Assembly: GCF_011398155.1 (NCBI RefSeq)
Contig: NZ_AP021888.1
Coordinates: forward strand, 2,268,001-2,332,000
DNA from: Thiosulfativibrio zosterae
Lineage (GTDB): Bacteria > Pseudomonadota > Gammaproteobacteria > Thiomicrospirales > Thiomicrospiraceae
Reading direction: 5' to 3'
DNA length: 64,000 bases
The notes below the pieces were generated by a model, which saw only the letters and a program-made list of their open reading frames with translations, ran no database searches and had not been told where the DNA came from. Both the position numbers and the translations under genes were made by a program. Position 1 is the first letter of the stretch, and each line of letters begins with the position of its first letter. Positions 52,717-58,409 of this stretch are shown here, piece after piece.

Positions 52717-53457
52717 ATGTCTAGATTTATCAGCAAAGAAGGCCAAAAAGTCCCTAACGTTATTTTCCGTACGCGTCAAAACAATGAATGGGTAAATGTT
52801 TCAACAGACGACCTTTTCAAAGGCAAAACGGTCATCGTTTTCTCTTTACCTGGTGCTTTCACGCCAACTTGTTCTTCTGCTCACCTACCACGTTACAATG
52901 AATTAGCTGGAACTTTTGCCGCCAATGGCGTTGACAGCATTGTGTGTATGTCAGTTAACGATACCTTTGTCATGAACGCTTGGGGCGAAGACCAAGAAGC
53001 CAACAATGTCACTTTAATTCCTGACGGCAATGGTGAATTTTCGGAAGGCATGGGCATGTTGGTTGATAAGTCTGACCTAGGGTTTGGTATGCGTTCATGG
53101 CGTTATTCTATGTTGGTGAAAGATGGTACGATTGAAAAAATGTTCATCGAACCTGATGTTGCGGGCGACCCATTTGAAGTGTCTGATGCCGACACCATGT
53201 TGAAATACATCAACTCTGAAGCACAAGCGCCAAAAGCGGCCACCATTTTCACGAAACCTGGTTGCCCATTCTGCGCGAAAGCCAAAGAAAACCTAACCAA
53301 AGCAGGTATTCATTATGAAGAAATCACCATCTCTAACGCAGATGTGACTTCTCGTACTTTGCGTGCGATTGCCAATGCCAATACCGTGCCACAAATCTTT
53401 ATCGAAGGCCAATACATTGGCGGTTCGGATGACTTAGAGAAATTCTTAGCTAAATAA
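52717..53457 (+). CDS. peroxiredoxin-glutaredoxin fusion (hybrid Prx5)
   Basis: Glutathione-dependent peroxidase of 246 residues. N-terminal Prx5-type peroxiredoxin (~1-160) with [18 protein letters not shown], where the Cys is the peroxidatic residue, and C-terminal glutaredoxin (~172-246) with [16 protein letters not shown] (CxxC), the TVPQIFI cis-Pro loop and GGSDDLEKF. The fused glutaredoxin reduces the peroxiredoxin with glutathione; the next gene is glutathione reductase. Strong AAAGGAAG ribosome site. Confidence 0.95.
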
Positions 53458-53531: not shown

Positions 53532-54902
53532 ATGACATACGATTATGATGTAATTGCAATAGGCGCTGGTAGCGGTGGATTGTCCGTGGTTGAACGCGCG
53601 GCAGAATATGGCAAAAAATGTGCCGTGGTAGAAGCCAAAAAACTCGGCGGCACCTGTGTGAATATTGGCTGTGTTCCCAAAAAAGTTATGTGGTTTGGTG
53701 CGCACATTGCCGAAGCCTTGCGCGATGCCAAAGATTTTGGTTTTGAGCATGAGGTTAAAGGCTTTGACTGGGCAAAACTGGTTAAAAACCGTGAGCAATA
53801 CATCAGCAACATCACCACTTGGTACGATGGCTATATGAAAGACAAAAATGTCGATGTGTTAAACGGCTGGGGCAGTTTGATAGATGCGCATACGGTATCG
53901 GTCGATGGCAAACACTACACCGCCGAAACGATTGTGATTGCGCCCGGCGGTAAACCCTTAATTCCAAATGAAGTAGACGGTGGCGAACTCGGCATTACCT
54001 CTGATGGCTTTTTTGCGCTGACCGAACAACCCAAAAAAGTGGCGGTGATTGGCTCTGGTTACATTGCGGTTGAACTGGCGGGCGTTTTACAAGCCTTGGG
54101 CACCGACACCTCTTTGCTCAGCCGTAAAGATTTGGTATTGCGCGGCTTTGATGACATGATTCGTGAAACCCTCACCGATGCTATGATTGAAAGCGGCATT
54201 CACAAAGAATACCACTTTAAAGTCAAACGCTTATATCGTGCGGCTGATGGCACGCTCACCGTTGAAAGTGAAGATGGTCAACATTTAGAAGGTTACGACC
54301 AAGTGATTTGGGCGGTCGGTCGCGAAACCCTCACCGAACCTTTAGCACTTGAAAAGGTCGGTCTCAGTGTCAATGGCAAAGGGTTTATTGAAGTTGACGA
54401 GTTTCACAAAACGGCGGTGGATAACATTTATGCCATCGGCGATGTCACCGGCCAGCCTCAACTCACCCCCGTGGCGATTCGTGCTGGGCGCTTTTTGGCA
54501 GAACGCCTCTACAACAATCGCCCTGACTTAAAACTCGATTTACACGCCGTGCCCACGGTCATTTTCTCGCACCCACCGGTCGGCACGATTGGTTTGGCAG
54601 AACATGATGCGCGCCGCCAATTTGGACATGACAATGTGCAGGTTTATACCTCGGTGTTTACGCCCATGCGCTATGCCTTTACCGAACACCAAATCAAAAC
54701 CGCTTTGAAATTGGTCACGGTCGGTGAAGATGAAAAGGTGGTCGGTGTGCATATCGTCGGTGATGGTGCCGATGAAATGTTACAAGGCTTTGCCGTAGCG
54801 GTACAAATGGGTGCGACCAAAGCCGACTTTGACGCCACCATCGCCATTCACCCATCGGCCGCAGAAGAGTTGGTAACCATGCGCCCAATGAAATACAAAT
54901 AA
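53532..54902 (+). CDS. gorA: glutathione-disulfide reductase
   Basis: NADPH-dependent reduction of GSSG, cytoplasmic. 456 residues: FAD loop AIGAGSGGLSVVERAA, redox-active disulfide GGTCVNIGCVPKKVMW, NADPH loop VIGSGYIAVELAGVL followed by LLSRKDLVLRGFD, NIYAIGDVTG, and the C-terminal catalytic HPSAAEELVTMRP. Supplies reduced glutathione to the peroxiredoxin-glutaredoxin fusion upstream. Good AGGAG ribosome site. Confidence 0.96.
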   Translation: MTYDYDVIAIGAGSGGLSVVERAAEYGKKCAVVEAKKLGGTCVNIGCVPKKVMWFGAHIAEALRDAKDFGFEHEVKGFDWAKLVKNREQYISNITTWYDGYMKDKNVDVLNGWGSLIDAHTVSVDGKHYTAETIVIAPGGKPLIPNEVDGGELGITSDGFFALTEQPKKVAVIGSGYIAVELAGVLQALGTDTSLLSRKDLVLRGFDDMIRETLTDAMIESGIHKEYHFKVKRLYRAADGTLTVESEDGQHLEGYDQVIWAVGRETLTEPLALEKVGLSVNGKGFIEVDEFHKTAVDNIYAIGDVTGQPQLTPVAIRAGRFLAERLYNNRPDLKLDLHAVPTVIFSHPPVGTIGLAEHDARRQFGHDNVQVYTSVFTPMRYAFTEHQIKTALKLVTVGEDEKVVGVHIVGDGADEMLQGFAVAVQMGATKADFDATIAIHPSAAEELVTMRPMKYK

Positions 54903-54966: not shown

Positions 54967-55051
54967 TTTAAAAACCACACAGGCGAAGTGCAGGTTTATT
55001 TTTTAACTCAGTTTGCTAAACTGTTGCGCAATGACATGCAAAAAAGGACAA

Positions 55052-55597
55052 ATGATGAGCATACGAAAATACTTAGGCATAGTGCCACAAATCGCCGAAT
55101 CGGCTTGGGTGGATGACTCTGCCGTGGTGATTGGCAAATGCCAATTGGCGGAAGATGTTGGTATCTGGCCAAACGCCACTTTGCGCGGCGATGTGAACGA
55201 CATCATCATTGGTGCACGCTCAAATATTCAAGATGGCGCAGTGGTACATACAACTCATGAATCTGAGCGCTCCAAAGGCTCTAAATGTATTGTGGGGCAA
55301 GATGTGACGGTTGGTCACAATGTCGTGCTGCATGGCTGTGTGATTGAAGATGAATGTTTGATTGGCATGGGTGCCGTGGTGTTAGACAATGCCGTGGTGC
55401 AAAAACATGTTTTGGTGGGAGCAAACAGCTTAGTGCCACCCGGCAAAGTGTTGGAAAGTGGCTATTTATATGTCGGTTCACCTGTAAAACAAGCGCGCCC
55501 TTTAACCGATGCTGAGAAAGCATTTTTTAGATATTCTGCCGCGCATTATGTAAAATTGAAAAACGATTTTAAAAACGGTGATTGTGGCGAGGTTTAA
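55052..55597 (+). CDS. gamma carbonic anhydrase family protein
   Basis: Left-handed beta-helix protein of 181 residues with hexapeptide repeats (AWVDDSAVVIGKCQLAEDVG, WPNATLRGDVNDI, NIQDGAVVHTTHE, VGHNVVLHGC). The metal-binding histidines His-x-x-x (VHTTH) and VTVGHNVVLHG are present. Resembles YrdA/PaaY-type proteins; carbonic anhydrase activity is known for some. I start at ATG 55052 behind AAAGGAC; the frame from 55013 adds an unlikely Cys-rich leader. Confidence 0.9.
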   Translation: MMSIRKYLGIVPQIAESAWVDDSAVVIGKCQLAEDVGIWPNATLRGDVNDIIIGARSNIQDGAVVHTTHESERSKGSKCIVGQDVTVGHNVVLHGCVIEDECLIGMGAVVLDNAVVQKHVLVGANSLVPPGKVLESGYLYVGSPVKQARPLTDAEKAFFRYSAAHYVKLKNDFKNGDCGEV

Positions 55598-55845
55598 CCT
55601 AGCCAAAAAACTCAAAAAATCAAAAGGGTCAGACTCGATTGATTATAAGAAGGCTAAAGCCTTCGCCCCATTCGCTGTCAAAATAGCATCAGAGGGGCGC
55701 AGGCTTTAGCCTGCACTTTAACCAGCACCAAATCAAACTAGTCTGATGGTGTGGACACGCCCATTCATGCAAAACGGCTTTATTTTGCAAATAGAAATCA
55801 CGAATTTTGACCAGGCCTGGTCGTTTTTAGGGCTTTTTTGCTGTT
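55598..55845. repeat. minus-oriented bipartite REP-like element and palindrome
   Basis: GAAGGC arm at 55649-55669, a 24-bp spacer, and GCAGGC arm at 55694-55714: the reverse complement of the unit found after metH. It follows CAAAAGGGTCAGACTCGATT. CCAGGCCTGG lies at 55811-55820 just before the stop of the convergent P-II-like gene. No gene supported. Confidence 0.85.
55810..55821. repeat. CCAGGCCTGG palindrome, P-II intergenic copy
   Basis: 12-bp ACCAGGCCTGGT with ATTTTG and CGTTTTTAG flanks, 25 bp after the end of the P-II-like gene on the opposite strand. Confidence 0.92.
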
Positions 55846-56229
55846 TTATTTAGGCAAATCCTTTTCTAAGCTGACTTCTTCAGCAACCATCTCCGTTAAA
55901 TCAGGCAATTCATAATTGGTTGAAAACCCTAGATCGGCTTGAAAAATGATGCCGCCTTCAAACTCGGCAATTTTCGCTAAGAAATACATTTCATAGAAGA
56001 CTTCTTCAGCATATTCAGGTGCAACGATGGCGGTAATCATATCAACCTCTTGCCAATCTCTTTGCCCCATTTGCACATGCTGATTTCTGCCAGTGGCGTA
56101 ATCAATCCCCAACACATGTTTTTGATTGTGCAAAGCCTGCACCACTGCCTCTGCATGACCACGCGCCATCACACAGCTGATCAGTTTGGCGCACTGCAAG
56201 TGTTGTTTAATCTCTGCAAAACTGAGCAT
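55846..56229 (-). CDS. P-II-like signalling protein, second copy
   Basis: 127 residues of the P-II fold: KLISCVMARGHAEAVVQAL (beta1-alpha1), EVDMITAIVAPEYAEEVFYE (beta3) and AEFEGGIIFQADLG, the position of the nucleotide-binding B-loop. The canonical T-loop tyrosine motif is absent, so it is not GlnB/GlnK. It starts one base after the previous P-II-like gene's stop and has an acidic tail (MVAEEVSLEKDLPK). Probably modulates the DUF1538 transporter-like protein encoded upstream. Confidence 0.82.
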   Translation of the reverse strand: MLSFAEIKQHLQCAKLISCVMARGHAEAVVQALHNQKHVLGIDYATGRNQHVQMGQRDWQEVDMITAIVAPEYAEEVFYEMYFLAKIAEFEGGIIFQADLGFSTNYELPDLTEMVAEEVSLEKDLPK

Positions 56230-56230
56230 G

Positions 56231-56626
56231 TTATCTATGCCCCGACAAACGATCTTTTTCGATGCGTTGCAAAACTGCCTCTGGAATATAGGTGGCGGCT
56301 TTTTCTAACGGGGTAACAAACATAATGCCCATGCCCGGGGTATCGAGCTTGCCCGCGTTAAACATGGCGGCAAACACTTCTTCTTGTTGCTGACGCGATA
56401 CCATGATTTGCACAATTTCTTTTTCGGCTTCTACCGTAATACTCAACAAGCCTAAACGCTCTCTCACGCCAGCGCCACGCCCAAATTGTACCGATGCCCC
56501 TTGGGCGCCTGCTGCTCTGGCAGCGGCCACCACGGCATCCGCCATACCTCTTTGAATCATGCAGGTAATCAATGAAACGCCGGTTAAAATCGTCATTTCT
56601 TTGGGAGAATTTTGCGGTTTAATCAT
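56231..56626 (-). CDS. P-II-like signalling protein, first copy
   Basis: 131 residues: MTILTGVSLITCMIQRGMAD, VVAAARAAGAQGASVQFGRG (short T-loop region lacking the GlnB Tyr), SITVEAEKEIVQIMVSRQQQ and DTPGMGIMFVTPLEKAATYI, equivalent to the P-II B- and C-loops. ATGA overlap with the DUF1538 gene. Two divergent P-II-like proteins in a row suggest a heteromer or two inputs to one membrane target. Confidence 0.85.
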   Translation of the reverse strand: MIKPQNSPKEMTILTGVSLITCMIQRGMADAVVAAARAAGAQGASVQFGRGAGVRERLGLLSITVEAEKEIVQIMVSRQQQEEVFAAMFNAGKLDTPGMGIMFVTPLEKAATYIPEAVLQRIEKDRLSGHR

Positions 56627-58350
56627 GCCTTAGATTCCTTTGTTTGACAGGGTTGGTTAGGCTTACACACCTGGCTGCGATATTTAATCCACAAACCCGT
56701 TATCAAGACCGTAATAATGGGGCCAATGGAAGCCATTGATAAAATTCCAAATCCTTCAACCGCACCGACCGCTTGTCCTAGACCCAAGCCCATCGCAAGG
56801 ACCAGCGGTACTGTCACAGGCCCAGTGGTCACACCCGCACTGTCCCAAGCGACATTCACAAAGGATTCTGAGGATACGAAAGTTAAGATTAAAGCAAACA
56901 AATAGGCAGGAATTAAAATGTAAGCCAAGGGTAAATCAAAAACAATTTTGGCGACACCCACTGCAATCCCAAACCCAACGCCCAAAGACACCGCCATCAT
57001 CAAGGTTTTCTTTTTAAAAGCACCACTGGTTAAACTTTCAACCGTCATGCCCAGGGCATTTAAAGCGGGCTCCGCTAAGGTGGCGCCAAACCCTAAAACA
57101 AAAGCAAAAGCCAAGGCAATCAAAATCCCTAATGAAAACCAATACAACGGTGATTCACCAATCCCTGGCACTTCGGTAAACGCACAGGGAATCAAAGAGC
57201 CCGATTGTCCGCCCAATTTTGCCAAACCATAGGTTAAACCTATGTTAAAAATAATCATGCCCAACACCGCAAACCCTAACCCCAAAAACACGGTTTTTTT
57301 GTTGGGCAAACTTTCTTTTAAAACATACACCAGCACTAAGCCCAAAAACAACACCAAAGGCACAATAGAGCGAATACCGCCAATGATTTCGGCATAGGGC
57401 GTTGCGTCCATCCAAGAAGGCGCTTCTACAACCGCTGTTTGACTGGCTGCCATAATCGTCGCTAGCGGAACGGTTTCAACCAAATAAACTGACAGCATCA
57501 ATACGCCTAAAATTGGGAATAAGGAAGCTAAGGTCACGATACCAAACCCAGATAAAGATTGATTACCACTGCCCGCAGCTGATGCAATGCCAATGCCCAA
57601 AGCCAACACCAGCGGCACAGTTACCGGCCCTGTGGTTACCGCGCCACTGTCCCAGGCCAAACCGACCATTAAGCGTAAATGTTCATCTTGAAAGGCATAA
57701 AAAGTCAGTAACAAGGTTGGCAATAAGGTCAGCACAATTAACGGTTTTAAACTCCAACCATACAAAAAGCGCATTGTTCCCAGCACCGCGGCTAAGCCCA
57801 CGCCTATGCCGACTACCAAGACCAAAGTGCCAGACCAATCATTGAGCAGCGTATATAAATAAGGCGCTTGCGTTACGCTCACATTAGAGCCAGCCGCCTT
57901 CAAAGCCCCGATGGCTGGTTCGGCAAAAGTCACGCCTATACCCAACAAAAATGCGATGGTTAAGACCACCGGCAAACTGGATTTTTGCGGCAGTTTATTG
58001 CCAATCACTTCGCCAAACGGCATCAAACCGAGTTTTAGGCCTTCCATAAACAACATCAAACCGAGCACAACTGCCATTAAGCCGCCCGTTATGACGGCCG
58101 CATCGGCCACCGACTGTCTTAAGATGAGTATTTGAAACAACGCCAAATAAATCGCGAGCGGCAAAACTGCTTTTAACTGTTCAAGAATTTTGGATTGTAG
58201 ATAAGGGCGAATCAGACGATAAGCGTCGATGGGGCGAATTTTAAATTTGGTATAAGCCGCATTTGGAGATTTGTTCAGTTCATCATAGCTGATGACTTTG
58301 GCGTTATAACGACGATGTTCAACCAAATCCTGATAAGGAATTTGTTTCAT
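56623..58350 (-). CDS. membrane protein with two DUF1538 domains
   Basis: 575 residues from ATG 58350 (MKQIPYQDLVEHR) behind GGAG; a GTG six codons upstream is less likely. The chain is an internal duplication: TFAEPAIGAL (~143) and TLAEPALNAL (~426), and WDSGAVTTGPVTVPLVLALG (~234) and WDSAGVTTGPVTVPLVLAMG (~503). About 14 membrane helices with buried Glu and Asp, as in an ion-coupled transporter. Function of the family is unknown; the adjacent P-II-like genes suggest it is controlled by adenylate or carbon/nitrogen signals. Confidence 0.88.
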   Translation of the reverse strand: MKQIPYQDLVEHRRYNAKVISYDELNKSPNAAYTKFKIRPIDAYRLIRPYLQSKILEQLKAVLPLAIYLALFQILILRQSVADAAVITGGLMAVVLGLMLFMEGLKLGLMPFGEVIGNKLPQKSSLPVVLTIAFLLGIGVTFAEPAIGALKAAGSNVSVTQAPYLYTLLNDWSGTLVLVVGIGVGLAAVLGTMRFLYGWSLKPLIVLTLLPTLLLTFYAFQDEHLRLMVGLAWDSGAVTTGPVTVPLVLALGIGIASAAGSGNQSLSGFGIVTLASLFPILGVLMLSVYLVETVPLATIMAASQTAVVEAPSWMDATPYAEIIGGIRSIVPLVLFLGLVLVYVLKESLPNKKTVFLGLGFAVLGMIIFNIGLTYGLAKLGGQSGSLIPCAFTEVPGIGESPLYWFSLGILIALAFAFVLGFGATLAEPALNALGMTVESLTSGAFKKKTLMMAVSLGVGFGIAVGVAKIVFDLPLAYILIPAYLFALILTFVSSESFVNVAWDSAGVTTGPVTVPLVLAMGLGLGQAVGAVEGFGILSMASIGPIITVLITGLWIKYRSQVCKPNQPCQTKESKA

Positions 58351-58409
58351 GCGAGCTCCAAATACCACTTAAAAAATAAACAAATTCAAATTATACACAT
58401 TTCAACGAG

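Follow-up and report, generated by a model that had tools for sequence, protein, structure and literature searches.

The window analysed here comprises 64,000 nucleotides of the Thiosulfativibrio zosterae genome (contig NZ_AP021888.1), and three closely packed genes on its minus strand occupy positions 55846–58350. The first gene (56623..58350) encodes a duplicated DUF1538 membrane protein of 575 amino acids, in which a UmpA-like half is fused to a UmpB-like half. Its ATG is preceded by GGAGCTCGC, with GGAG upstream, and an alternative GTG start at 58368 would give a protein of 581 residues. According to the open reading frame (ORF) calls, the stop codon of this gene overlaps the start of the second by four bases (ATGA, 56623..56626). 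The second gene (56231..56626) encodes P-II-1, a 131-residue member of the P-II superfamily with a shortened T-loop, assigned through Pfam, profile comparison with the PDB and a residue table. A one-base gap separates it from the gene for P-II-2 (55846..56229), a more diverged superfamily member of 127 residues recognized through profiles, an AlphaFold2 model and Foldseek. A first-pass annotation, made from the sequence alone, had described the same extent, order, overlap and gap, and the minus-strand ORFs agree with it. The three genes would form a single operon-like unit; promoter and terminator scans gave no excess over shuffled sequence.

The DUF1538 domain occurs twice in the membrane protein (366.8 bits, Pfam gathering score 22.6), and alignment of the two halves with hhalign yielded an E value of 1.5e-39 at 35% identity. 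The NCBIfam models UmpA (239.5 bits, best stretch 59–294) and UmpB (169 bits, best stretch 332–556) both match the protein. As the equivalog cut-offs are 490 and 500 bits, respectively, the window protein shares the family without being an equivalog of either. From hhalign and the AlphaFold2 model, the first repeat spans residues 60–313 of the 581-residue frame (57430..58191, minus strand), with seven predicted helices, two of them broken, and the second spans residues 322–571 (56656..57405, minus strand), also with seven predicted helices. The model (pLDDT 83, pTM 0.83) contains seven helices per half; in each half, helices are interrupted at AEP and at TTGP, the first AEP break falling at residues 149–150. 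With the N-terminus taken as inside and the termini excluded, lysine and arginine number 10.7 per 72 inside-loop residues versus 3.7 per 102 outside. Because their density is higher in the inside loops, the two halves are predicted to adopt opposite orientations, which under the positive-inside rule makes the second an inverted counterpart of the first. The modeled topology fits a 7+7 inverted repeat, and of the inverted- or tandem-repeat transporter proposed earlier it is the inverted form that this topology supports.

The membrane protein had also been described as carrying two copies each of TTGPVTVPLVLA and AEPA, and both pairs were located in the alignment and the AlphaFold2 model. All four motifs lie on the minus strand. 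The first AEPA motif (57913..57924) contains E150 and sits at a helix break; the second (57064..57075) contains E433. The copies of TTGPVTVPLVLA at 57601..57636 and 56794..56829 are preceded by D240 and D509, respectively. Across 52 sequences of the window's DUF1538 type, E150, D240, E433 and D509 do not vary, and the A149-E150-P151 triplet is likewise invariant in 52 sequences. Cation/proton antiporters typically contain discontinuous helices bearing acidic residues. Each half of the window protein would provide two broken helices with an invariant acidic residue (E150 and D240; E433 and D509), which are plausible candidates for the ion and proton sites. Foldseek and VIA-align identified no convincing relative of DUF1538 among solved structures. 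The best Foldseek match (E 0.017, TM 0.13–0.16) was unconvincing, the best VIA-align scores (Z up to 5.9) were to unrelated helical proteins, and weak partial matches to elevator-type carriers lay within noise. DUF1538 may thus adopt a fold without a solved structure.

P-II-1 scores barely above the Pfam P-II cut-off (26.6 versus 25 bits), and for P-II-2 Pfam gives no match. Profiles built from 52 relatives of each protein nevertheless revealed the kinship: P-II-1 matched GlnK in the PDB at E = 9e-8, P-II-2 matched PII at E = 4e-6, and the two profiles matched each other at E = 3.6e-21. No SbtB structure was among the P-II-1 profile matches listed at E 0.01. The AlphaFold2 model of P-II-2 (pLDDT 88.6) matched GlnK and CutA in Foldseek at about 1e-5. 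Both proteins are thus related to P-II in fold and sequence.

In GlnK, the nucleotide is contacted by Thr29, Gln39, Gly87, Lys90, Arg101 and Arg103, and 2-oxoglutarate by residue 9 and Lys58 (PMC8395244). The window proteins do not carry this canonical GlnB/GlnK set for nucleotide and 2-oxoglutarate. Relatives of P-II-1 are without the outer T-loop and have the consensus Arg, Ile, Thr and Ile where GlnK has Gln39, Lys90, Arg101 and Arg103; they keep Gly87 and also Thr29, which is Ser in the window. P-II-2 is more distant from the canonical ligand residues than P-II-1. The position of Tyr51 is a gap in P-II-1 and Gln in P-II-2, which sets both apart from canonical GlnB/GlnK and matches the earlier remark that neither has the GlnB tyrosine. 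Unlike GlnK, the window P-II combines a shortened T-loop with the absence of Tyr51, Lys90, Arg101 and Arg103. Because most canonical ligand residues and the outer T-loop have been lost, classic Mg-ATP/2-oxoglutarate sensing appears unlikely; the ligand may be another nucleotide, by analogy with SbtB (PMC10991534), or another molecule. The public label “P-II family nitrogen regulator” is probably misleading for such genes.

To assess how widely the arrangement is kept, named genomes were scanned with the window's DUF1538 type, and the best 80 of 470 confirmed loci were analysed. By their record labels, many of which belong to metagenome bins and are possibly wrong, these loci are mostly from Gammaproteobacteria, with others from Nitrospinota, Nitrospirota, Campylobacterota, Desulfobulbaceae and Bdellovibrionales. 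This is the survey of DUF1538 neighbourhoods that had been suggested as a check, and it bore the pairing out: among these best 80, the P-II-1 gene lies directly downstream of DUF1538 in all 80, and the P-II-2 gene comes next in all 75 with enough sequence, the contigs of the other five ending about 330 bases or less from the stop of DUF1538. The 4-base overlap recurs in 47 of the 80, as called by the ORF finder. In a sample of 370 genomes from the class of the window organism, DUF1538 was present in 128 (about a third) and this P-II type in 123. Both occurred in 121 genomes, DUF1538 only in 7, P-II only in 2 and neither in 240, an association far above chance in counts that ignore kinship. Six of the seven DUF1538-only genomes prove to have a P-II next to DUF1538 once the search profile fits better, and the two P-II-only matches sit on short contigs (5.4 and 3.1 kb). 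P-II also comes after DUF1538 on plasmids of Alphaproteobacteria and Clostridia, lies upstream or downstream depending on the clade (e.g., L032), and stands right downstream of the sampled UmpB nearest to the Halomonas protein (469.9 bits, cut-off 500).

Four architectures were found across the family: a DUF1538 that is either split or fused but short, with one P-II; the long fused form accompanied by two P-II genes, as in the window; in Clostridia, a fused DUF1538 with a single chain of two P-II domains; and a DUF1538 of about 630–730 residues with a single chain of three P-II domains, each of which matches the window P-IIs at about 5e-8 or better in hhalign. On a tree of 34 DUF1538 proteins these four labels need three changes, the minimum. 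P-II architecture, as read from the sequences, tracks the transporter tree, in which the order of the deepest branches is unsure because the branches are long. The first-pass annotation had proposed joint action of the three products, the P-IIs regulating the transporter; cross-phylum gene order and matching P-II architectures strongly support this at the sequence level. Because P-IIs accompany the transporter family almost everywhere they were looked for, the cell probably switches the DUF1538 transporter on and off through them. Known P-II members are trimers, and for this reason the three-domain chain is most simply read as a covalent ring of unequal subunits, a pseudo-trimer. By analogy with NifI1/NifI2 (PMC9765008), P-II-1 and P-II-2 should mix.

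Several individual records illustrate this variety. In certain relatives of the window organism (L039, L040, L043 and L101), for example Thiomicrospira microaerophila, one-P-II and two-P-II DUF1538 systems stand side by side. Clostridial records from a plasmid collection (L191–L194) carry a tandem two-domain P-II of about 220 residues directly behind a fused DUF1538. The three-P-II chains of L200–L205 and L207 measure about 385–405 residues, and the adjoining DUF1538 has an extra domain of ~100 residues between its halves. In L003 and L004, ORFs that looked like P-II/UmpB fusions proved to be out-of-frame upstream extensions.

The characterized member of the DUF1538 family is UmpAB from Halomonas zhaodongensis, which was cloned by rescue of antiporter-deficient E. 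coli, with both proteins being needed (PMC5484666). In everted vesicles of E. coli KNabc, UmpAB carried out Na+(Li+,K+)/H+ antiport that depended on pH, as reported in 2017 (PMC5484666) by a single laboratory. The first-pass annotation took the substrate to be undescribed, which is incorrect: DUF1538 is the family of this antiporter, and the UmpA and UmpB models match the two halves of the window protein. Of the candidates then listed, a cation is favoured by UmpAB antiport and by neighbouring Na+/H+ exchangers, while bicarbonate and carboxylates gained no specific support. UmpAB needed no P-II gene for its activity in E. coli (PMC5484666), which argues that P-II would regulate rather than enable transport; the UmpAB paper makes no mention of P-II. 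The window protein shares with UmpAB the Pfam family and two homologous 7-helix halves, the first closest to UmpA and the second to UmpB. Unlike UmpAB (PMC5484666), it is fused into one chain with an N-terminal extension of roughly 60 residues, and, in contrast to the published UmpAB work, it is accompanied by two P-II genes. Because it is distant from Halomonas UmpAB and scores under both equivalog cut-offs, its substrate may have shifted.

A further indication of the transported ion comes from gene neighbours. In 16 of the best 80 of 470 loci, the gene immediately next to the locus, on its upstream or downstream side, encodes a CPA1 Na+/H+ exchanger (L091, L095, L100, L108, L110, L114, L117, L118, L119, L125, L128, L131, L132, L138, L141 and L146). 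All seven exchanger neighbours tested matched PF00999, and six of them also contained a C-terminal cyclic-nucleotide-binding domain (PF00027). About half of the 16 loci are from Nitrospinaceae, so fewer than 16 independent events are represented; the differing positions and strands nevertheless indicate several. These neighbours favour a role in cation/proton homeostasis. A GAF/GGDEF/response-regulator cluster near 18 loci turned out to be a loose mixture at varying places and was not counted.

Drawing on fold assignment, gene order and co-occurrence, on P-II architectures that are coherent within clades and on the loss of canonical ligand residues, we hypothesize that the window locus encodes a cation/proton antiporter together with a hetero-oligomeric P-II cap that gates it, a reading that we consider reasonably probable. 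The membrane protein would be a fused UmpA-UmpB cation/proton antiporter whose two homologous halves, of seven helices each, lie in opposite orientations in the membrane. P-II-1 and P-II-2 would form a hetero-oligomeric ring that would dock on the cytoplasmic side of the antiporter; depending on a small ligand in the cytoplasm, the ring would open or block the transporter, as in GlnK/AmtB and SbtB/SbtA. For this member we infer the substrate, the physical binding, the hetero-oligomer, the sign of regulation and the ligand.

P-II proteins are known gates of ammonium and bicarbonate transporters. In GlnK-AmtB, as in the window, a P-II gene lies beside the transporter gene, and gating is direct (PMC8395244); AmtB, however, is unrelated to DUF1538, and the window has two different P-IIs. 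In SbtB-SbtA, a non-canonical P-II-like protein gates a secondary transporter (PMC10991534), but this is a bicarbonate transporter of another family with a single P-II, whereas the window neighbour is DUF1538 and not SbtA. NifI1-NifI2 are likewise two adjacent, different P-IIs, both needed for one target (PMC9765008); in contrast to the reading proposed here, that target is nitrogenase and the ligand is 2-oxoglutarate with Mg-ATP. At the level of genes, the resemblance of the window's pair to NifI1-NifI2 consists in adjacency and in the fused two- and three-domain forms.

Alternatively, the transporter could move inorganic carbon as bicarbonate, with the P-IIs tuning CO2 concentration in the way that SbtB acts through SbtA. 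The window genome has RuBisCO, many relatives come from chemolithoautotroph lineages, and in the 370-genome sample RuBisCO was present in 94 of 128 DUF1538 genomes versus 92 of 242 others (odds ratio 4.5, kinship ignored). Yet only three of eight sampled genomes of the two-P-II type have RuBisCO, which leaves a carbon role without specific support in the window's own type, and only two of seven of the triple type do. Clostridia carry the family too, the tested member is a cation/proton antiporter (PMC5484666), and it is the Na+/H+ exchanger, not a carboxysome or carbon-transport family, that recurs beside the locus. A bicarbonate role is therefore quite improbable in our judgement.

We also considered that a P-II-regulated UmpAB-family transporter might have another cation or a carboxylate as its main substrate, Na+/H+ antiport being a side activity. 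Such a shift would accord with how far the protein has diverged from UmpAB (branches longer than 2 on the tree, NCBIfam scores under cut-off) and with an original UmpAB screen that selects any salt-resistance activity. The acidic motif residues are, however, invariant in the window's type and the recurrent neighbour is a recognized Na+/H+ exchanger, and we regard this possibility as unlikely, if worth weighing. P-II proteins have many soluble targets, and the two P-II-like proteins might be co-transcribed with DUF1538 and act elsewhere, the link being transcriptional only. Near-exclusive co-occurrence with a conserved overlap, placement upstream or downstream by clade, and an architecture that tracks the transporter clade all exceed what shared transcription would lead one to expect, making this last alternative very improbable.

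That DUF1538 is an antiporter family and that P-II proteins gate transporters was already known. A search of open-licence papers found DUF1538/UmpAB not linked to P-II, and as far as we could find, the family-wide P-II partnership of DUF1538 and the P-II architecture following the transporter tree are apparently new. It is an evenly balanced question whether DUF1538 is a whole antiporter family under direct P-II control, with P-II passing from a single protein to a pair and, in a sister clade, to a three-domain covalent hetero-trimer, and with a ligand other than Mg-ATP and 2-oxoglutarate. If so, this ligand would link the energy or metabolic state of the cell to cytoplasmic pH and Na+ homeostasis, extending P-II control to these processes and giving a little-studied family a regulator. 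The natural one-, two- and three-domain assemblies would make it possible to dissect what unequal subunits of a P-II ring each do.

The genes flanking the locus add no functional clue. They encode a peroxiredoxin-glutaredoxin, a glutathione-reductase-like enzyme, a hexapeptide protein resembling gamma-carbonic anhydrases, Ham1, YicC and a penicillin-binding protein. The peroxiredoxin-glutaredoxin fusion (52717–53457) adjoins the glutathione-reductase-like gene (53532–54902). The hexapeptide-repeat protein, similar to gamma-class carbonic anhydrases, is encoded at 55013–55597, convergent with the P-II-2 gene, and its position there is probably coincidental. The intergenic stretch at 55640–55725 contains the complementary segments AAGGCTAAAGCCTT and AGGCTTTAGCCTG and resembles a dispersed repeat element.
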